From Acidicapsa acidisoli (GTDB lineage Bacteria > Acidobacteriota > Terriglobia > Terriglobales > Acidobacteriaceae), in contig NZ_JAGSYI010000002.1 in NCBI RefSeq assembly GCF_025685625.1, positions 248,001 through 312,000 of the forward strand: a stretch of 64,000 nucleotides of DNA, in the 5' to 3' direction. Made by a program: the position numbers and the translations under genes. Positions 10,515 through 44,504 of this stretch are shown piece by piece; position 1 is the first letter of the stretch, and each line of letters opens with the position of its first letter. Below the pieces are notes generated by a model. That model was not told the origin of the DNA and did not search any database. It worked only from the letters and a program-made list of their open reading frames with translations.

Positions 10515-11282
10515 TCAGCGAGCCGCGGCCCAGACCTGATAGCTGTTAAAGAGGAACTGCCCTCCAAGAACAAGCAACCAAATCCAGAGTGCGAAGCGCA
10601 GAGGCCGGCGCGGAATTCTGTTCGTCAGCATAGTACCGGTAACCGCTCCGAATACGCCGCCAGCGATGAGATGCAGGAGAAGTTCCGGGTTTGACGCCTG
10701 CGAAAACCAATGCGCCCCGCTGCCGACCAGCGAAACGACGAAACCGAACGCAATATCCGTACCGACGACCTCTGCCGGAGCCAACGGAGTAAGGCTGAGC
10801 AGCGCAGCGCTGCCCAGTGCACCGGCGCCTGCCGATGAAAATCCAACTTCAGCACCGACCGGAAGCATCAGCCATGGCAACAAGCGGCTGCGATCCTTCG
10901 CACTCGAATTCTGCTGCATGGGCCTGAAAGAATAAACAAGCTGCCAGCTTGCGGTGCTCACAAGGATTGCACCGAGTAGCGCATTCAGCAGGTTCTGCGA
11001 GCCGGCGTTGACAAGATGTTTGAGGAACAGTGAACCGATGAGAACTCCTGGTGCTCCGCCCAGAAGCATGAAGCCGAGAGTGCGCCAGGAAACGTTACGG
11101 CGAACGATCTGCGCGGGAACCAGAATCAGTTTGACAGCCGTCGAAAACATCAGTCCGATTCCGACCGCAACTGGCGCGGGTACTCCCAGAAACAGCACGA
11201 GGACAGGCACGGTGACAGTACCGGCACCGACTCCCGTCAGCGCGATGAAGAGTGCTATAACGAATCCGATGAAGTACTGCAT
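10515..11282 (-). CDS. TauE/SafE family sulfite/sulfonate exporter-like membrane protein
   Basis: A 255-residue polytopic inner-membrane protein with about seven or eight hydrophobic helices and the glycine-rich repeat signature of the TauE/SafE family (GVGAGTVTVPVLVLFLGVPAPVAVG in the first half, VGAEVGFSSAGAGALG in the second). The family moves sulfite, sulfoacetate or other organosulfur anions. It lies 27 bases after cysH on the same strand, last in cysD-cysN-cysH-tauE/safE. In that position it most likely exports excess sulfite produced by APS reduction, or imports a sulfur anion. Confidence 0.88.
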   Translation of the reverse strand: MQYFIGFVIALFIALTGVGAGTVTVPVLVLFLGVPAPVAVGIGLMFSTAVKLILVPAQIVRRNVSWRTLGFMLLGGAPGVLIGSLFLKHLVNAGSQNLLNALLGAILVSTASWQLVYSFRPMQQNSSAKDRSRLLPWLMLPVGAEVGFSSAGAGALGSAALLSLTPLAPAEVVGTDIAFGFVVSLVGSGAHWFSQASNPELLLHLIAGGVFGAVTGTMLTNRIPRRPLRFALWIWLLVLGGQFLFNSYQVWAAAR

Positions 11283-11309: not shown

Positions 11310-12008
11310 TTAGTTGGCTGGCGCCGCTTCAATGTGGATGCCGCATTCAACTTTTTGACCGGCCCAGCGTCCGGAACGCGGATCGTTGGGATCGAGCGGA
11401 ATCGTAGTACATGGCTCACAGCCGATTGACGAATAGCCGCGTTCATAGAGCGAGAGCAACGGGATACTCAGTTGCTCGCAGGCGTACCAGACATCGCGCG
11501 TCGTCCATTCTGCGAGGGGCGCAAGCTTTCGCACCTGCTTGCCGCCCGGCAAGGTGAACATCGCAGATTCTTCCAGCGCGGCGCGGCTTCTAGCCTGCTC
11601 GCGGCGCAAACCAGTCAGCCATACGTTGTATTCGGCGACTGCTTTGAAGAGCGGCTCGACCTTGCGCAATTTGCAGCATTGGTCCGGGGCTGAGCGATAG
11701 AGCAGACCATGCTCCAGTTCCTGCTCGGCGACGGTTTTCTCAGGCAGCAGATTGATGAGATTCAGACCCCAATCTGCTGCGATTTTGTCTCGGTACGAAT
11801 AGGTTTCTGCGAAATGATAGCCGGTATCGAGGAAGAGGATTGGAATCTGCGGATCGAATTCGATAGCCAACTTCGTGAGCAACACATCTTCTGCCTGGAA
11901 GCTGCATGTCAGGCAGACATCTTGAGCACCCGTAATTGCTTGTGCGAGAGTTGCGCGTACTTTATCAACCTTGGCGCTTGCCAGCGCTTGTATCTCCGAG
12001 GTGCTCAT
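11310..12008 (-). CDS. cysH: Thioredoxin-dependent adenylylsulfate (APS) reductase CysH
   Basis: A 232-residue cytoplasmic enzyme that reduces activated sulfate to sulfite. It has the PP-loop-like N-terminal region (CSFQAEDVLLTKL). The [4Fe-4S] cysteine pairs are both present: DQCCKLRKVEPL and GCEPCTTIP. The catalytic C-terminal motif VECGIH is also present. The four cluster cysteines distinguish APS reductases from the cluster-free PAPS reductases, so APS is the predicted substrate. Its start overlaps the cysN stop by four bases (ATGA), indicating translational coupling. The genes upstream supply the APS. Confidence 0.93.
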   Translation of the reverse strand: MSTSEIQALASAKVDKVRATLAQAITGAQDVCLTCSFQAEDVLLTKLAIEFDPQIPILFLDTGYHFAETYSYRDKIAADWGLNLINLLPEKTVAEQELEHGLLYRSAPDQCCKLRKVEPLFKAVAEYNVWLTGLRREQARSRAALEESAMFTLPGGKQVRKLAPLAEWTTRDVWYACEQLSIPLLSLYERGYSSIGCEPCTTIPLDPNDPRSGRWAGQKVECGIHIEAAPAN

Positions 12009-13732
12009 TGGATGATTGCCCTTTCAGAACGAGGAAGAATGCCGACCCGCGAAAGCAGTTGATGGACGGCGGAAACCACGGAAGCTGTATCGCTCGCGAC
12101 GACGGTTAGCTGTTCGCCATCAGCGCGTGCGGTAAGCGTGCCGGTTTCAGTGGAAGTGACGACGAGTGCAATCAAACCAGACTGAACGCTGGACTGCAGG
12201 ACGAGTTCCAGCAGCTCGGGATGGTTTTCAATCGCTGGATTAGCTCTTTCGATGCGGAAGGTGATCTTGCCCGTTGCGAAGAGAGAGCGTTCAATCGCAT
12301 CGATCAACTCGATGGGTCCATCCAACTCAACGACTCCACCGTAGTGGCCCCAGCGAGCGGCTCTTTCCTGCGCAGAGACGCGACCCGATAGTCGGGCAGC
12401 GGCCGTTGCGGCGCTCACATCTTCGGCGGATGCAACAGTGACCATGCCGGCCGCAACTGTGCTGTTCGTTTCCGGATCAATCAGGATGAAGGCGCCCGTT
12501 GAACGATTCTCACCGTACGGGTCGAGCGCTATGGGCCGCAGCAATTGAATCGAGACAACACCGATTGCATTCATCTCCAGCGTCTCGGAGGATTCCTGTG
12601 AGAGCGAAGTGATGTTGGTTCGGTGTTCAACCGACGACACAACGGCCGGGACTGTTTGGCTGGTGTGCTTGAGCAGATAGCGGCGACCTCGCTCAAGCGG
12701 CCGTTGATCCATCCACACAAGCGCCCCCTTCAGAGACTTGACTACCGTCGCGGGAGACTCGGCAGAGACAATCAGATCGCCGCGGCTGATGTCGAGTTCG
12801 TGGTTGAGCACGAGTGTTACGGAGAGCGGCGCATGCGCCTCGGTCAGGTCGCCATCCCAGGTGACAATACGCTCGACTTCCGCGCTGCGGCCCGAGGGAA
12901 GCACGGTGATCTTGTCGCCGGGACGAACGGTCCCCGACGCAATCTGACCGGCGAAGCCGCGAAAAGTGTGGTCCGGGCGAAGCACGCGCTGCACTGGTAA
13001 ACGGAAGGGAGCACTTTGAGTGCCGAGTGACGATGGAAGTGACTCCAACAGCTCCAGCAGCGACGGCCCATCGTACCAGCTCATGGCATCGGAACGATGA
13101 ACGATGTTATCTCCCGCCAGCGCACTCACTGGAACGAAGACCGGCTCGACGGGATTGCCCGTATCTGCTGCGATCTGGTCCAGCAGAATACTGAAATCGC
13201 GTTCAATTGCCCGGAAGGCACCCTCGTCATAGCCGATAAGATCCATCTTGTTGACTGCAACAAGTATGTGGCGCACACGCAACAGGGATGCGATGTAAGC
13301 ATGCCTACGTGACTGCACCAGCACGCCTTTGCTTGCGTCGATGAGAACAACGGCAGCATCAGCAGTTGATGCACCGGTCGCCATGTTGCGCGTGTACTGC
13401 TCATGGCCTGGCGTGTCCGCAATGATGAACTTGCGCCGCGCCGTCGAGAAGTAACGATAGGCAACATCGATGGTGATTCCCTGCTCGCGCTCGGCGCGCA
13501 AGCCGTCCGTGAGTAACGCGAAATCGATCTGTCCTGGTGCAGTGGTTCCCTTGCCCTGAATCGACCGGACCTGATCGTCGTAGACCGACTGGGTGTCATA
13601 CAGAAGCCGTCCGATCAGCGTGGACTTTCCATCGTCGACGCTGCCTGCGGTCGAGAAGCGGAAGAGGTCCTTCGTGCGTTCTTCGGCGAGAAATTCGTCT
13701 ACAGAAAAAGCTGAAGCCGCGAGAGCAGTCAT
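12005..13732 (-). CDS. cysN: Sulfate adenylyltransferase large subunit CysN with degenerate APS-kinase-like tail
   Basis: A 575-residue GTPase subunit of ATP sulfurylase. G-domain motifs are GSVDDGKST (P-loop), DTPGHEQY and NKMDL, followed by the EF-Tu-like beta domains. CysD plus CysN make APS from ATP and sulfate, driven by GTP hydrolysis. The tail from about residue 449 retains pieces of an APS kinase as found in CysNC fusions. ERAARWGHYGGVVELDG runs straight into AIERSLFATG with the P-loop missing, followed later by QSGLIALVV and a final LLSRVGIL helix. The kinase would therefore be inactive. The start codon directly abuts the cysD stop, and its stop overlaps cysH. Confidence 0.92.
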   Translation of the reverse strand: MTALAASAFSVDEFLAEERTKDLFRFSTAGSVDDGKSTLIGRLLYDTQSVYDDQVRSIQGKGTTAPGQIDFALLTDGLRAEREQGITIDVAYRYFSTARRKFIIADTPGHEQYTRNMATGASTADAAVVLIDASKGVLVQSRRHAYIASLLRVRHILVAVNKMDLIGYDEGAFRAIERDFSILLDQIAADTGNPVEPVFVPVSALAGDNIVHRSDAMSWYDGPSLLELLESLPSSLGTQSAPFRLPVQRVLRPDHTFRGFAGQIASGTVRPGDKITVLPSGRSAEVERIVTWDGDLTEAHAPLSVTLVLNHELDISRGDLIVSAESPATVVKSLKGALVWMDQRPLERGRRYLLKHTSQTVPAVVSSVEHRTNITSLSQESSETLEMNAIGVVSIQLLRPIALDPYGENRSTGAFILIDPETNSTVAAGMVTVASAEDVSAATAAARLSGRVSAQERAARWGHYGGVVELDGPIELIDAIERSLFATGKITFRIERANPAIENHPELLELVLQSSVQSGLIALVVTSTETGTLTARADGEQLTVVASDTASVVSAVHQLLSRVGILPRSERAIIQ

Positions 13733-14689
13733 TTAGAAATAACCCTCCCGCTTCTTGATTTCCATCGACCCTTCCTGATCGTGATCGATGGCTCGGTTCG
13801 CACGTTCCGAGGAGCGAAACGAGAGCAGTTCGGCGATGATGGCAGGAATCGTATCTGCATCCGAACGAATCGCGCCGGTGCATGGACTGCACCCAAGCGA
13901 ACGCAGGCGCGACTTGACCATACGCGGCTGCTCGCCGGGCCACGCGACAAACTCCTGCTCGATCGGCAGCAGCGCATCGCCGCGTACATACATCGGCCGC
14001 TCCTTGGCGAAGTAGAGATCGACGACGGGAATCTTTTCCTCATGGATGTACTGCCACACATCCATCTCGGTCCAATTGGAGAGCGGAAAGACACGGATGC
14101 TTTCGCCGGGATGAATGCGCGCGTTGTAGAGATTCCAAAGCTCTGGCCGCTGATTTTTCGGGTCCCACTGCCCTGCGCTATCTCGGAAGGAATAAATCCG
14201 CTCCTTGGCGCGGGATTTCTCCTCGTCGCGGCGAGCGCCACCAAAGGCCGCATCAAATTTGTAATGACGGAGCGCATCGAGCAGAGCCTGCGTCTTCAGC
14301 AGCCCGCAGCAGCGCTTAGTGTCCAATGCAATCGGGTTGGTGCCCGCGGCGATTGCCGATTCATTGCGCCAGACAAGCAACTCCGCACCTATGGAGCGAG
14401 CCATCTCGTCGCGGAAGGTCAGCATTTCCGCGAACTTGAAGCCGGTATCGATATGCAGGAGTGGGAATGGAATAGGAGCGGGGTAAAAAGCCTTCTGCGC
14501 CAGGCGCAACATAACCGATGAGTCTTTGCCGATTGAGTAAAGCATCACCGGCCGCTCAAATTCCGAGGCAACCTCACGCAGAATGTGGATACTTTCCGCT
14601 TCAAGCAGCCGCAGATGGCTCAGGGGCGGGGGGGCGGACGTTTTCCCTGCTTCCAATTGCAAATCGACTTCGTTTTCGACAACCGGCAT
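13733..14689 (-). CDS. cysD: Sulfate adenylyltransferase small subunit CysD
   Basis: A 318-residue subunit with the PP-loop ATP-pyrophosphatase motif [10 protein letters not shown], plus [28 protein letters not shown] and the C-terminal [10 protein letters not shown] region typical of CysD. It catalyses APS formation from ATP and sulfate with CysN. ATG 14689 (MPVVENEV) is chosen over the in-frame upstream ATG at 14731 because GAGG lies five bases before it and family members have a short N-terminus. The stop codon TAA is immediately followed by the cysN ATG. The 267 bases upstream contain a small cysteine-codon reading frame and an inverted repeat, which may regulate it. Confidence 0.93.
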
Positions 14690-14807
14690 GCAAACCTCGA
14701 TACTTCCTGGTGTGCTGAACGCCGGAACCACAGAGAGACATACCCGGCTGAACAGCTACGGGTGTGGCCTCTGGATCACTCGATATCTTGTACTGGGAAA
14801 TCGGAGA

Positions 14808-14876
14808 CTAGAACGGGCACCCGTCGAAGATGTTCGACAGGCGACAACAAGAGCGGCTTTGGGAAGCGCGAACCAT
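14808..14876 (-). promoter_or_regulatory. Possible cysteine-codon leader ORF in front of cysD
   Basis: An ATG-initiated 22-codon frame whose product ends SRSCCRLSNIFDGCPF before TAG. It has adjacent TGT-TGT codons and a third Cys codon. The frame overlaps a 6-bp stem GTCGAA/TTCGAC (14823-14838). No convincing Shine-Dalgarno is visible. By analogy with amino-acid attenuators it could sense cysteinyl-tRNA for the cysDNH operon, but it may be chance. Confidence 0.3.
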
Positions 14877-14900
14877 GTGTGGATTGATGGTAGCAAAGTT

Positions 14901-14930
14901 TTGGCGCGGACACAAACCGGTCCGCGCCAA
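14901..14930. repeat. 10-bp perfect inverted repeat between the TonB receptor and cysD
   Basis: TTGGCGCGGA (14901-14910) and TCCGCGCCAA (14921-14930) are exact reverse complements around a 10-base loop. It begins 27 bases after the receptor stop on the minus strand. No T-tract follows, so it may be a partial terminator or mRNA-processing hairpin separating receptor from cysD expression. Confidence 0.6.
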
Positions 14931-14956: not shown

Positions 14957-17900
14957 CTAGAAAAGAAACTTCAAGGCAAATTGAAGCTGGCGTGAAGTGG
15001 TCGCCGTCGCGGTCATTACACCCGCTGTCGGCGAAAGCGCCGCAGCCGTGCCCGGCTTCGCCGGCGTGGGGCCGGTGCTGAAGACCACGGGGTTTGGCGT
15101 GGTGAAGTTGGTGTGGTTGAGAATATTGAAATACTCCGCACGAAATTGGGTTCGCAGCCGTTCATGAATCGTGGTGGTCTTCGCAAAGGATAGATCCACA
15201 TCGGTCAGGCCAGGACCAGTCAGTCCGTCGCGACTGGCATTGCCAAAGGCGCCAGGATAAGGCGCGACGAAGGCATTTGGGTTGAACCATTCATTCGCAG
15301 TCCTTGGATAGAGCGAACCGCTGAAGTTAGGATTCAGTTGCGGGCGAGCCGGATTGCGGGTGTCTCCGTTGCCAGTTGGGTTGTAGCCAAGCTGGGGCGA
15401 GAACGGAAAACCGCTTTGCAGCGTGGCGATGCCGCTCACGTTCCATCCTCCGATCAAGTCCTGCGCAATCGGAGCGGCATTGGCCAGCACGGCGTGACCG
15501 CGACCCACAGGCAACTCCCAGGTGCCGTTGATGGCCGCTGCCTGGCTGATGTTGGTTGCGGCCAGGCCGTGGTCCAGCTTGGGATTCCCGGGAAACGAAA
15601 CGAACGCCGGGGTGTTGGACGAGACGCTGGTGTTCCATGCCGAGCCGTCGTCGAGGTTCCGCGAATACGTATAGACGCCGCGCAATTGCAGTCCTCCACC
15701 AAACTGACGCTTCACATCGATCTCCAGCGCGTTGTAATTGCTGATGCCTTGCGAAACCCAGGAGGTCGAGTTGGCCAGCTTCGGATTGGCGAGTGTAGTC
15801 GATGGATAGTAGACAGTTCCCGCCGGAAGGGATGCAGGGCACGAAGCTGCCGGGCAGACGACCGAATCGGGTGTGTTCTGGTCTTCGGAAAGGATCTGGT
15901 GATAGCCATGCGAACCGACATAGCCGACCGTGATGGTGGTGAGCGGCGCTATCTCCTGCTCCAGCTTCAATGTCCACGCCAGCACAGTAGGCGTCTGAAT
16001 ATTCGGCTGCACGTTGCTCGGGGACACCAGTCCACCGGGCGCAGAGGCAAGCGACAGCGCCTGCAGCTTGCTTACTGTGGTGTTGCTATAAGAGAGCGTG
16101 GTATTGTACGGCGCTGTCTGGTCGAGCCGGTAATCGAGAGTATCGAGCAGTGCGCGATGCACTCCAAAGCTGCTCTTGATCACCGTCTTGCTTTTCCCAA
16201 AAGGATCATACGCGAAACCGACTCGCGGCTCGGGCAGGAACTTGGCGCGATTGTCGCTAAGCGCTGAACCGCCGACCGTGGGAGTCGTGTTGATTACGCC
16301 GTCGGTGAATCCGTAGTTGGAGGCGCGGTTTTGGGCTTCGTTCCAGCCATTTGAGGATTCAAAGCGGAAGCCGGCTCGCACCTCAAGCTTCGGAGTAGCC
16401 TTCCAGGCGTCTTCGATAAAGCCCGCAGCAAAAAGAGAACGCCAGCCCAACTCGGTGGGCGACGGGACGATGGTGTACTTCGAGACGGTCCCTGCTTCGA
16501 AGGTACTGAGCGTCGAGAACGAAGCCTGTCCGTATTGATCCTGCGCCAGGAAGTCATTGGATTGTAGCCGCTGCAGCCACACGCCGGCCTCGATCTGGTG
16601 AGTTCGATGCGTCCAGTAAATGTGATCATCGACCGTGAAAAGATTGCGCGCGGTCAGGTTGTTGCTGCCCGTGTTCGCACCCGCCAGCGTGATCTGCGAA
16701 GCGCCATTCGATGCAGTGCTGCCCGATATGACGACCGCGCCCACTGGGCCGTTGCCGACCCAGCCCGGCACTCCACCCGCAACAATGCTCTGAAAGGAGA
16801 AGTCTGCCCGTGAGTAACCGATGCGGAGCGTATTCAGCAGGCTCGGCGAGAAGACGTGCTGCTCCTGCGCGCTCACCACCTGTTCGCGCAGGCGTTCATA
16901 GATCGATGAGTACGGATTCGCCGAAGGCGTTGTTGCGTCGCTGTCATCCACGGTGTAGACACCGAAGAGCAAGTCCTTTTGCGAAAGGTTGTCATCGATG
17001 CGTGTCGTACCGAAGTCTTCCCGAACATGCTGCGGCGGATTGGAAAAAGCCTCGGCAATTCCACCGCCCAGCTCCTTCGTTCCGACGGGCCACAAAGCCA
17101 GCAGCGGCTGAACGCTGGCGACCGTTGCCGCACGGGCTGCCGCATCGGGAACAAAGGTGACATCGCTCAGACCGAGGTGCTGGCGATAGCCTTCATAGTT
17201 CGCGAATCCGAAGAGCTTGTCGCGACGCAGCGGACCACCGAAGGCAGCTCCAAAGTCGTTGCGCTGAAACTCCGGAATCTGCGCCTGATCGAAGTAATTG
17301 CGCGCATCGAGAGCGCTGTTGCGCAAAAACTCGTACACCGAGCCATGAACCTGATTGCTGCCCGACCCGGTGATGATGGAGATTTGCGCGCCGGTACGTT
17401 TGCCGTAGTTGGCCCCGTAAGTATCCGTGACCACATTGAACTCGCGCACAGCCTCAACGCCGAGTAATTGGCCGCTCGTGCCGCCGGGCGTCACGTTGAT
17501 CAGAGACGCGCCTGTGTATTCAATGCCGTTCAGCAGGAAGAGATTATCCTGTGGGCGGCGTCCGGAGATGGAATACATATTGCCAACTGAAGAATTCGAT
17601 GTGCCAACGCCGCCGGAACGTTGCGTCGTATAGCTCACCGACGCCGGATTGAGTTGAAGAAGCTGATCGAAGCTGCGGCCATTCAGCGGCAACTCCTTGA
17701 CCTGGCGCTCATCGACCAACCCCTGCGTCTGCAGCGTGGATGTGTCGATGGCGGCGGGTGTATCGACTACCGTCACCACTTGCTCCACGTTACCTACCGA
17801 GAGCGCAAGATGTAGTTGAATGCTCTGCCCGACCGTGAGAGCGATGCCGGTACGCTTGAGGGGAGCAAAACCCTCCCGATTGACCGTGATGCTATACGTC

Positions 17901-18142
17901 CCGACCGGAATCGAAGGCGCGGAGAATGCGCCGCCCTGGGCCGTAATGAGTTGGCGGACGCCACCTGTCTCCTCGTTGCGTATCTGCACCGTGGCTCCGA
18001 CTACGGAAGCATCCTTTGGGTCGACCACGTCGCCCGCGATGGTTCCACCAACCAGTTGCGCATGCAGGAACGTCGGTAAGACCAATACGGCGAAAGCAAA
18101 GAACAGGATTCGTGCTTTGGAAGCGGATTGCAATGCGTTCAT
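14957..18142 (-). CDS. TonB-dependent receptor, Oar-like, upstream of the sulfate-assimilation genes
   Basis: A 1061-residue outer-membrane receptor. It has a signal peptide (hydrophobic about 10-28). Residues 30-115 form a carboxypeptidase-regulatory-like beta-sandwich (GTIAGDVVDPKDASVVGATV). A plug domain follows (VKELPLNGRSFDQLLQLNPA near 150), then a long beta-barrel ending in an aromatic residue (ALKFLF). Such proteins import large or scarce substrates using TonB energy. GGAG lies seven bases before ATG 18142. It is 225 bases upstream of cysD on the same strand, and its leader has cysteine-rich mini-ORFs. I infer that it imports a sulfur-containing compound, though the ligand cannot be read. 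Confidence 0.9.
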   Translation of the reverse strand: MNALQSASKARILFFAFAVLVLPTFLHAQLVGGTIAGDVVDPKDASVVGATVQIRNEETGGVRQLITAQGGAFSAPSIPVGTYSITVNREGFAPLKRTGIALTVGQSIQLHLALSVGNVEQVVTVVDTPAAIDTSTLQTQGLVDERQVKELPLNGRSFDQLLQLNPASVSYTTQRSGGVGTSNSSVGNMYSISGRRPQDNLFLLNGIEYTGASLINVTPGGTSGQLLGVEAVREFNVVTDTYGANYGKRTGAQISIITGSGSNQVHGSVYEFLRNSALDARNYFDQAQIPEFQRNDFGAAFGGPLRRDKLFGFANYEGYRQHLGLSDVTFVPDAAARAATVASVQPLLALWPVGTKELGGGIAEAFSNPPQHVREDFGTTRIDDNLSQKDLLFGVYTVDDSDATTPSANPYSSIYERLREQVVSAQEQHVFSPSLLNTLRIGYSRADFSFQSIVAGGVPGWVGNGPVGAVVISGSTASNGASQITLAGANTGSNNLTARNLFTVDDHIYWTHRTHQIEAGVWLQRLQSNDFLAQDQYGQASFSTLSTFEAGTVSKYTIVPSPTELGWRSLFAAGFIEDAWKATPKLEVRAGFRFESSNGWNEAQNRASNYGFTDGVINTTPTVGGSALSDNRAKFLPEPRVGFAYDPFGKSKTVIKSSFGVHRALLDTLDYRLDQTAPYNTTLSYSNTTVSKLQALSLASAPGGLVSPSNVQPNIQTPTVLAWTLKLEQEIAPLTTITVGYVGSHGYHQILSEDQNTPDSVVCPAASCPASLPAGTVYYPSTTLANPKLANSTSWVSQGISNYNALEIDVKRQFGGGLQLRGVYTYSRNLDDGSAWNTSVSSNTPAFVSFPGNPKLDHGLAATNISQAAAINGTWELPVGRGHAVLANAAPIAQDLIGGWNVSGIATLQSGFPFSPQLGYNPTGNGDTRNPARPQLNPNFSGSLYPRTANEWFNPNAFVAPYPGAFGNASRDGLTGPGLTDVDLSFAKTTTIHERLRTQFRAEYFNILNHTNFTTPNPVVFSTGPTPAKPGTAAALSPTAGVMTATATTSRQLQFALKFLF

Positions 18143-18221
18143 GACTGAACTCCAAAAAGGGATTGCTATGAATTTTGAAAACGAAGTAAGGAAATAGAGA
18201 TGCTGTGAGGAAGCAGGGCAG

Positions 18222-18255
18222 GCTCAGGCGCGACAACACGGCGCCGCGCCTGAGC
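18222..18255 (-). promoter_or_regulatory. Hairpin at the end of the second cysteine-codon leader ORF
   Basis: GCTCAGGCGCG (18222-18232) and CGCGCCTGAGC (18245-18255) form a perfect 11-bp stem with a 12-base loop. In the minus-strand RNA the loop holds the last TGT-TGT pair, and the stem contains the stop codon of the mini-ORF. That geometry suits ribosome-position-dependent attenuation. No U-tract follows, so it may act by Rho or by masking the receptor start region, which lies 80 bases downstream. Confidence 0.55.
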
Positions 18256-18307
18256 TAAGACAACAAGCCCGCGCGAGAGACGGCCGCGTATGTGATGAAG
18301 TGACCAA
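18224..18307 (-). CDS. Putative cysteine leader peptide 2
   Basis: A 27-codon frame from TTG 18307 to TGA ending ARACCLSSGAAPCCRA. It has two tandem cysteine pairs, all TGT. Its last codons are inside the 18222-18255 hairpin and the receptor start is about 80 bases downstream. The start codon is uncertain; a weak AGGA lies some ten bases upstream. The likely role is translation-dependent regulation by cysteine supply, not a functional peptide. Confidence 0.4.
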   Translation of the reverse strand: MVTSSHTRPSLARACCLSSGAAPCCRA

Positions 18308-18394
18308 TGCTGACAGGTCCTGACTGGCTGGATTAGTGCTGGATTGAAGGAATTTCTCTACCGTTGGAATTCCCGGTAGCAGGTAATTGCGAAA

Positions 18395-18508
18395 CTAGCG
18401 CGGACAACAACAGACCCGGTGCGCCTGGGTGGCACAACAACAGATCGTTGGTTGGCTGGATGCAATCACAATGCAATCGAGATTAGCACGCAATTGGCGG
18501 GCGTGCAA
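18395..18508 (-). CDS. Putative cysteine leader peptide 1
   Basis: A short frame whose end reads TICCCATQAHRVCCCPR before TAG: two runs of three consecutive TGT codons within 13 residues, plus another Cys upstream in RANLDCIVIASSQP. The RANLD..I..S segment ahead of the Cys cluster resembles, loosely, the (R)HIDL.R.SS pattern of actinobacterial sulfur-locus leader peptides. The start could be TTG 18508 or TTG 18493; neither has a clear ribosome-binding site. It lies 250 bases upstream of the TonB receptor that precedes cysDNH. I read it as a cysteine-sensing leader. Confidence 0.5.
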   Translation of the reverse strand: MHARQLRANLDCIVIASSQPTICCCATQAHRVCCCPR

Positions 18509-44135: not shown

Positions 44136-44504
44136 TGAACTCCTCCAGATTTAGTCTCGGAGCGAGTTGATGCAAACATCTAGCCAACCACACGCAGGAG
44201 AAATCAGAAGTGACCGATGGCGTTTCGCAGGGACGAACAGGTCGGGTCGAGGGAGCAAAGTTTTGAGTCTGTAATGTTTGTTATCGAAAAGCCGATATCG
44301 CCTCCACTTTTTCGAATAGCGGCAAAGCTTACCTATGTGGATTCATATTTTGAAGTGCATAGGTTGGTCTTTTGACCAGGAAGCGCATTTCGATAATACT
44401 CGCACACGATAAGAATGAAACAGGAGTTGAGTCCTGCAACGCAAATATGCGTTGCGAGCGTGAAGATGGCTTCCATAGGATCGTTGCCGGTCATCGAATG
44501 ACTG
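44136..44504. other. Intergenic region upstream of TonB receptor 2
   Basis: About 370 bases with no supported gene. It should contain the promoter of the receptor on the minus strand. It includes AT-rich stretches near 44270-44360. No strong dyad or riboswitch-like pattern was seen. Confidence 0.5.

Follow-up and report, generated by a model that had tools for sequence, protein, structure and literature searches.

The 64,000-nt stretch of the Acidicapsa acidisoli genome analysed here (the window; G000:C2:248001-312000 in a genome of 7.1 Mb) encodes an outer-membrane receptor preceded by two short open reading frames (ORFs) with clustered cysteine codons, and a cysD-cysN-cysH cluster preceded by a third such ORF. 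Comparison with the upstream regions of related genes from a large set of soil Acidobacteriota makes it probable (about 0.85) that these ORFs are leader peptides by which cysteine controls a sulfur-uptake and assimilation regulon, including the outer-membrane receptor. The genes behind the leaders would most likely be switched on at cysteine shortage. The elements at the receptor are as follows, the letters having been checked unless another source is given:

18503..18508, minus strand: leader 1 promoter, -35-like TTGCAC at a 17-nt spacing from the -10
18480..18485, minus strand: extended -10 (TGC TAATCT), 10 nt before the leader 1 GTG (promoter scan and letters)
GTG 18469 to TAG 18395, minus strand: leader 1, MIASSQPTICCCATQAHRVCCCPR-stop, with six TGT codons, ending CCCPR-stop
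TTG 18307 to TGA 18224, minus strand: leader 2, MVTSSHTRPSLARACCLSSGAAPCCRA-stop, with four TGT codons, ending CCRA-stop
18222..18255, minus strand: perfect 11-bp hairpin spanning the second Cys pair and stop codon of leader 2, without a T-tract (letters and RNAfold)
18164..18223, minus strand: C-rich, G-poor stretch past the stop codon of leader 2 (C at 20 and G at 6 of 60 positions), a candidate Rho loading region
14957..18142, minus strand: outer-membrane receptor (CarboxypepD_reg and OMP_b-brl_4; domain match)

The first-pass annotation had reported ten TGT codons in two short minus-strand frames ahead of a TonB-type receptor, and a perfect 11-bp hairpin overlapping the second frame, with a TGT pair in the loop and the stop codon in the stem. 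The frames and the hairpin are present in the letters. Leader 1 contributes six of the TGT codons and leader 2 four, two of which are near its stop. The hairpin, which RNAfold returns in the minimum free energy and the centroid structures, has arms at 18245-18255 and 18222-18232, a 12-nt loop containing TGTTGT, and the stop codon inside its 3' arm. The promoter scan scored the same -10 for leader 1, with a -35 one base away from TTGCAC. Leader 2 is preceded by AGGA, 10 nt upstream of its TTG start, and its stop is separated from the receptor ATG (18142) by 81 nt. No family reached the gathering score in an Rfam scan of the window.

Used as a DNA query, the 515-bp upstream region matched only the window's own genome among 61 genomes. 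The leaders diverge too fast for DNA search, and relatives were therefore collected through the receptor. A receptor search across the 61 genomes gave the nearest relatives of the window receptor, and a contig collection (84,980 species by its description) was scanned with alignment A1 of seven receptors. The relatives analysed are the best 80 of 136 receptor loci (L043-L122). The initial search gave 133 candidate receptor matches in the window genome and more than 100 in each of G001, G004, G051, G052, G054 and G059; the receptor group with Cys leaders is one among very many paralogous receptors.

All seven of the closest receptors (that of the own genome, then those at 82, 78, 76, 66, 61 and 59% identity) have Cys-run ORFs upstream; by the same loose rule 15 of the other 23 receptor loci have no Cys ORF and 8 have something. 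A strict rule, requiring at least three Cys in five codons inside the last 20 codons of an ORF, was applied to the 79 of the 80 loci with at least 250 nt upstream of the receptor (L044 was left out). It was satisfied upstream of 57 of these 79 receptors, compared with a mean of 2.95 in dinucleotide shuffles (maximum 7, 20 rounds). At least four Cys in five codons were found in 30 of the 79 regions, against 0.1 in the shuffles. The strict count varies slightly with the script, being 57/79 without the window and L044, 60/81 with both and 57/80 with the window included. On the antisense strand the strict rule was satisfied in 8 of the 79 regions. Runs of Leu, Ser and Arg are also common on the sense strand (44, 37 and 35 of 79) because these are frequent residues, and because TGTTG repeats are read as Leu in another frame.

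In the maximum-likelihood receptor tree (midpoint root; 81 rows, each a locus, two of them from Occallatibacter savannae; very long branches for L074, which has a broken frame, and L120), a starred branch separates a side on which 57 of the 63 rows have a strict leader from a side on which 3 of 18 do. The leader label changes nine times on the tree, against 18.8 times in shuffles, and at least eight changes are forced by starred branches. The leader thus tracks one receptor group, apart from some gains or losses. In the smallest starred set holding the window receptor, each of the 11 rows is preceded by a strict Cys-run ORF. Loss of the Cys codons from orthologous leaders, which would have spoken against leader function, was looked for and was not seen in these 11 rows or in the 57 of the wider 63 that keep the runs. 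One locus, L105, comes from a record titled Rhodanobacteraceae (Pseudomonadota), and its receptor and leaders are placed deep among Acidobacteriaceae in the tree; the record is probably a misnamed metagenome bin.

Leader 1 has counterparts in L043, L045, L074, L032, L047 and others, and the counterpart of leader 2 in L043 is LHTHKPHLRACLCKPGAAVRCCR-stop. The alignment of leader 1 over ten sequences of the window's group is nearly gap-free, and TTGTTGT before the stop is invariant. RNAalifold, run on ten sequences that are themselves under coding constraint, gave a hairpin between the Cys runs with both-side changes at 5 of its 14 pairs, and a common fold of leader 1 is not claimed from it. Leaders in other relatives include MCCCSCCCC-stop, MRCCCCC-stop, VKIASSQPTTCCCASMAHTVCCCSR-stop and MKLNLTLRAACCDCCRYAVAAWV-stop. 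Runs of codons for one amino acid are therefore conserved in frame in the orthologues, as they are in leader-peptide attenuators.

Neighbouring TGY runs are in phase in 36 of 42 cases, and in 35 of 42 the first ATG or GTG past a strong promoter shares its frame with the Cys run, which indicates that the Cys frame is the real one. The codon usage is also distinct, TGT accounting for 79% of the Cys codons in the leaders (319/404) and for 24% in genes of at least 200 amino acids (819/3385). The gap between the -10 and the start codon is 6-11 nt in 34 of the 42 strong-promoter regions with a Cys run (6 or 7 nt in 19, 8-11 nt in 15). The -10 is located 6 nt before the GTG in L043, L045, L046 and L051. 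This spacing suggests that the leaders are leaderless or nearly so.

Two successive Cys ORFs, one strict and the other with CC, precede the receptor in 39 of 80 regions. In all 20 receptor regions with promoter scores for both leaders, that of the first was the higher. From Cys runs near a stop, the median distance to the receptor start is 89 nt (range 43-140, n=51). The distal leader and the receptor are separated in L056, L057 and L071 by a yeiH gene that has a Cys ORF too; thus, the proximal leader belongs to the receptor.

The third Cys leader of the window (14808-14876), which the first-pass annotation had overlooked, precedes cysD and has counterparts in L044 and L046. The elements between the receptor stop and the end of the sulfur genes are:

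14901..14930, minus strand: strong inverted repeat past the receptor stop, a possible end of the receptor transcript (read from the letters)
14910-14915: -35-like TTGTGT of leader 3 (letters checked)
14887..14892, minus strand: extended -10 (TGC TACCAT), 10 nt before leader 3, a putative promoter element (letters checked)
14808..14876, minus strand: leader 3, MVRASQSRSCCRLSNIFDGCPF-stop, before cysD (letters checked)
14820..14841, minus strand: hairpin CCTGTCGAA-CATC-TTCGACGGG past the CC codons of leader 3 (from the letters; the same in L186, a variant in L032)
13733..14731, minus strand: CysD-like sulfate adenylyltransferase subunit (domain match); the true start may be the ATG at 14689
12005..13732, minus strand: CysN-like GTPase subunit (domain match)
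11310..12008, minus strand: CysH-like PAPS/APS reductase (domain match)
10515..11282, minus strand: TauE/SafE family membrane protein (domain match)

Elsewhere in the window, at 44498 on the plus strand, an intergenic ORF, MTASVRIDCHHCCQNRSHCRPPLVTTESRLR-stop, has three Cys in five codons; no gene follows it within range, and it is probably a chance occurrence.

A near copy of leader 3, MVCASPSRSCCRLSNIFDGCLF-stop, precedes a sulfite reductase gene of the same genome (L186, G000:C1); it fails the strict rule. The 5' region of cysD, comprising the Cys leader and the first cysD codons, has seemingly been copied there, and a short CysD-like fragment ORF is left between the leader and the sulfite reductase gene.

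The association of Cys leaders with sulfur genes is specific. In a count over 88 sources (91 less three duplicates), the intergenic sequence upstream contains a strict Cys ORF for 45 of 72 receptors, 9 of 15 cysD and 7 of 8 yeiH genes. The figure for other genes is 17 of 542, of which seven proved to be unlabelled receptor, receptor-fragment or cysD genes, which leaves 10/535. A looser rule, for which there is no control of its own, finds a Cys leader before 16 of 20 cysD genes. Sulfite reductase genes (PF01077) have a Cys leader at 22 of 30 loci, including loci of a second family of the order; L196 and L200, which have almost no upstream sequence, and L197, which was read in another frame, are all kept in this denominator. 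In cysS a Cys ORF occurs at 3 of 30 loci, all with TTG starts, and none of the 11 SulP loci has a Cys leader. A short Cys leader (MLRCCC-stop) was found before one of 18 cysK loci (L143-L160) and is probably due to chance, and L159 has Cys residues only in a longer ORF; cysK was rejected as a member of the regulon.

The yeiH-like gene (PF03601) of the window's own genome (L123, G000:C2:1134896-1135834) has a promoter, a leaderless Cys ORF and a strong intrinsic terminator. Its leader, MSSERCAFGMGCRCNCCCGRCARRRSGGWGLS-stop, has TTGACG-17-TATAAA located 6 nt before the ATG, and the terminator (-25.4 kcal/mol) is followed by TTTT. Among the 20 rows of a whole-genome search for yeiH (PF03601), Cys ORFs lie close upstream in the three best-scoring ones (own genome, G051 and G004). 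A strict-looking ORF was found otherwise only in L129 and L137, in both cases over 450 nt away from the gene. In L128, L130 and L139 a different frame was picked by the script, and L142 is a second piece of the gene in L140.

These short ORFs thus contain clustered codons for cysteine, the amino acid whose synthesis cysD, cysH and sulfite reductase serve. Sulfur genes (CysD, CysN, CysH, TauE) stand beside the receptor at 25 of 81 loci; thus, the leader is not tied to that neighbourhood. The earlier suggestion that such control would reach an outer-membrane receptor is retained as the best reading of the data, with a scope that is wider than suggested, as cysD, sulfite reductase and yeiH are included. 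In Occallatibacter savannae (L106 2070-2168) a Cys leader and a terminator precede a rhodanese-domain gene, a further likely member of the regulon. In L079 (7166-7219) they precede the gene of an Rrf2-type regulator just upstream of the receptor; an iron-sulfur or cysteine regulator may be under the same control.

In the proposed mechanism, transcription would begin at the start codon of a Cys-rich short ORF or a few bases before it. When cysteinyl-tRNA is plentiful the ribosome would complete the leader and the downstream genes would stay off, and when it is scarce the ribosome would stall on the Cys codons and the genes would be expressed. The window would have three leaders of this kind, a tandem pair in front of the receptor and a single one in front of cysD-cysN-cysH. 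Where an intrinsic terminator follows the leader in relatives, base pairing between the codons past the Cys cluster and the terminator's 5' arm is predicted for some of the leaders, so that a stalled ribosome would keep the antiterminator available, much as in trp attenuation. Segment 2 of this trp-like switch would be supplied by codon tails, for example GCG TGG GT (AWV-stop). At the receptor-proximal leader, a ribosome stalled at the leader end would most likely hide a Rho loading site in the manner of TnaC, because the Cys run is near the leader stop and a C-rich, G-poor stretch lies behind it.

Terminators were counted by strict scans only. A permissive count (37/57) was set aside, being inflated because TGTTGT itself was scored as a T-tract. 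Strict terminators (for example, ACCCACG...CGTGGGTTTTTT) follow 6 of 12 cysD leaders, 5 of 7 leaders of yeiH and that of the rhodanese gene, in most cases between +130 and +160 counted from where the leader starts. Among sulfite reductase genes, 10 of 30 have a terminator-like site in the 330 nt upstream (at least one of these sites precedes the leader); among cysS genes, 1 of 30 has such a site. Antiterminator pairing with the 5' arm beats 95% of composition shuffles in 11 of the 26 leaders with strict terminators, where about 1.3 would be expected. In the receptor leaders of L036, L065, L066, L067 and L093 the pairing stretch starts 8-18 nt past the last clustered Cys codon, which is about the front edge of a stalled ribosome. 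Past the stop of the proximal leader, the mean base composition over 46 loci is 34% C and 18% G, against 29% C and 27% G upstream of 673 genes (p 2e-13).

Several observations weigh against this reading. Leader 2 of the window has TTG as its start codon, and the fold of the 339-nt window leader is not unusual (z -0.76; 22 of 100 shuffles at least as stable). The terminator scan found no intrinsic terminator after either leader of the window receptor, so the off-switch proposed for this gene is a presumed one, and the argument for a Rho step there is drawn from base composition. In the strict scan, 16 of 58 receptors with leaders have a terminator-like site upstream, as do 4 of 21 receptors that have no leader. 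The scan thus fails to distinguish the two sets, and intrinsic terminators serve at most part of the receptor leaders. Six of the 12 cysD leaders are likewise without a strict terminator. In 15 of the 26 leaders with strict terminators, the antiterminator pairing shows no such excess over shuffles. The pairing stretch begins 1-4 nt past the Cys cluster in L077, L081 and L084 and overlaps the Cys codons in L054, L056 and L057, positions that a stalled ribosome would cover. Finally, 6 of the 63 rows of the receptor group have no strict leader.

The alternative that deserves most weight, although it is unlikely, is translational attenuation, in which a ribosome stalled on the Cys codons would melt a structure hiding the ribosome-binding site of the receptor. 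Mycobacterial polycysteine leaders reportedly work in this way, and the leaders described here resemble them in being leaderless or nearly so and in having contiguous Cys codons. However, the predicted accessibility of the receptor start is almost the same for the free (0.45), stalled (0.47) and control-masked (0.46) leader over 51 loci, as it is for the window receptor (0.36, 0.39 and 0.40), and some leaders of cysD, yeiH and sulfite reductase genes are instead followed by intrinsic terminators. Unmasking of the ribosome-binding site by leader 2 in particular was not supported by folding.

The TGTTGT repeats could also be DNA or RNA binding sites of a sulfur regulator, with the frames incidental. 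The word TGTTGTTGT is repeated near promoters, and leader 1 has two direct copies of it, but Cys runs broken by single codons stay in frame, which makes this explanation very improbable. It is just as hard to sustain that the peptides act themselves as small metal-binding or redox-sensing proteins; Cys-rich small peptides do exist elsewhere, but the sequences outside the Cys runs vary widely, the leaders can be as short as MRCCCCC-stop, and the downstream genes are sulfur genes. Chance, which the first-pass annotation had left standing as an explanation of the Cys-codon runs, could produce them in a single genome, and a strict Cys ORF precedes about 2-3% of other genes and 3 of 30 cysS genes; for the family of loci, it is ruled out by the shuffles, the gene specificity, the frame and codon data, the sulfite reductase counts and the tree, and has next to no probability. 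Leader-peptide control by cysteine is thus preferred to these explanations.

A broader proposal, for which the odds appear slightly better than even, is that a cysteine regulon controlled by ribosomes rather than by a repressor arose independently in Terriglobia, that a single mRNA may combine two different cysteine sensors, with a classical attenuator at the promoter followed by a TnaC-like, Rho-dependent element at the receptor, and that the receptor imports a sulfur source. Acidobacteriota are among the major bacteria of soils. With a cysteine-tuned leader, one group of receptors acquires a testable role in sulfur uptake without a prior guess of the ligand; if the proposal is true, it marks one member of the huge, functionally unassigned CarboxypepD_reg/OMP_b-brl_4 family as a sulfur-source importer. 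It would also describe a whole cysteine regulon for one phylum, and two sensors in series on a transcript would be a useful case of combining ribosomes, intrinsic terminators and perhaps Rho.

In the literature searched, whose coverage excludes most subscription journals and which was screened by title and opening of the abstract, no cysteine leaders were found for Acidobacteria or Acidobacteriota, and the accessible text of PMC2965389 and PMC4833913 has no description of such leaders. The new elements here appear to be the phylum, an outer-membrane receptor as the target, two leaders in series and the mix of mechanisms. The first-pass annotation had mentioned cysteine leader peptides near sulfur genes in Actinobacteria, and the accessible text of PMC1262725 agrees, reporting candidates in Mycobacterium, Propionibacterium acnes and Bifidobacterium longum. 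These likewise have runs of Cys codons near the stop and precede cys operons or cbs, but they belong to another phylum, and that text mentions neither a receptor nor paired leaders in series. For the mycobacterial leaders, Seliverstov and colleagues suggested Rho (PMC1262725, from the same accessible text); no terminators were found there.

A second system is attenuation by the uORFC-8-2 motif, proposed to be ribosome-mediated, before cysS in Rhodobacterales (PMC8632094, accessible text). It shares tandem Cys codons, two in number, in an upstream ORF and an intrinsic terminator. The target there is cysteinyl-tRNA synthetase and UGC dominates, whereas UGU dominates here and cysS rarely has a Cys ORF (3/30). 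The mycobacterial polycysteine work is cited in PMC9094748 and PMC9031893, as far as their accessible text goes, and is in the reference list of PMC13236596.

The leaders described here can also be set against three other designs. The leaderless polycysteine short ORFs of mycobacteria, reportedly described by Canestrari et al. in 2020, are said to have contiguous Cys codons, a start at the 5' end of the transcript, several sulfur operons per genome and a cysteine signal; the present leaders share the contiguous codons and the several sulfur operons, and may share the 5'-end start and the cysteine signal. Unlike what is reported of that type, the present system is found in another phylum and has some intrinsic terminators, frequent tandem leaders and a receptor target; the freeing of a ribosome-binding site by the stalled ribosome, said to operate in mycobacteria, is not supported for the proximal leader here, as judged from folding only. 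In trp-type attenuators a stalled ribosome selects between antiterminator and terminator, and in TnaC a Rho site is masked at the leader stop. The distal leaders would share the first of these choices, with cysteine as the amino acid sensed, and the proximal leaders would share the masking of a Rho site at the leader stop. Unlike trp-type attenuators or TnaC taken alone, both types may be combined here on one mRNA.
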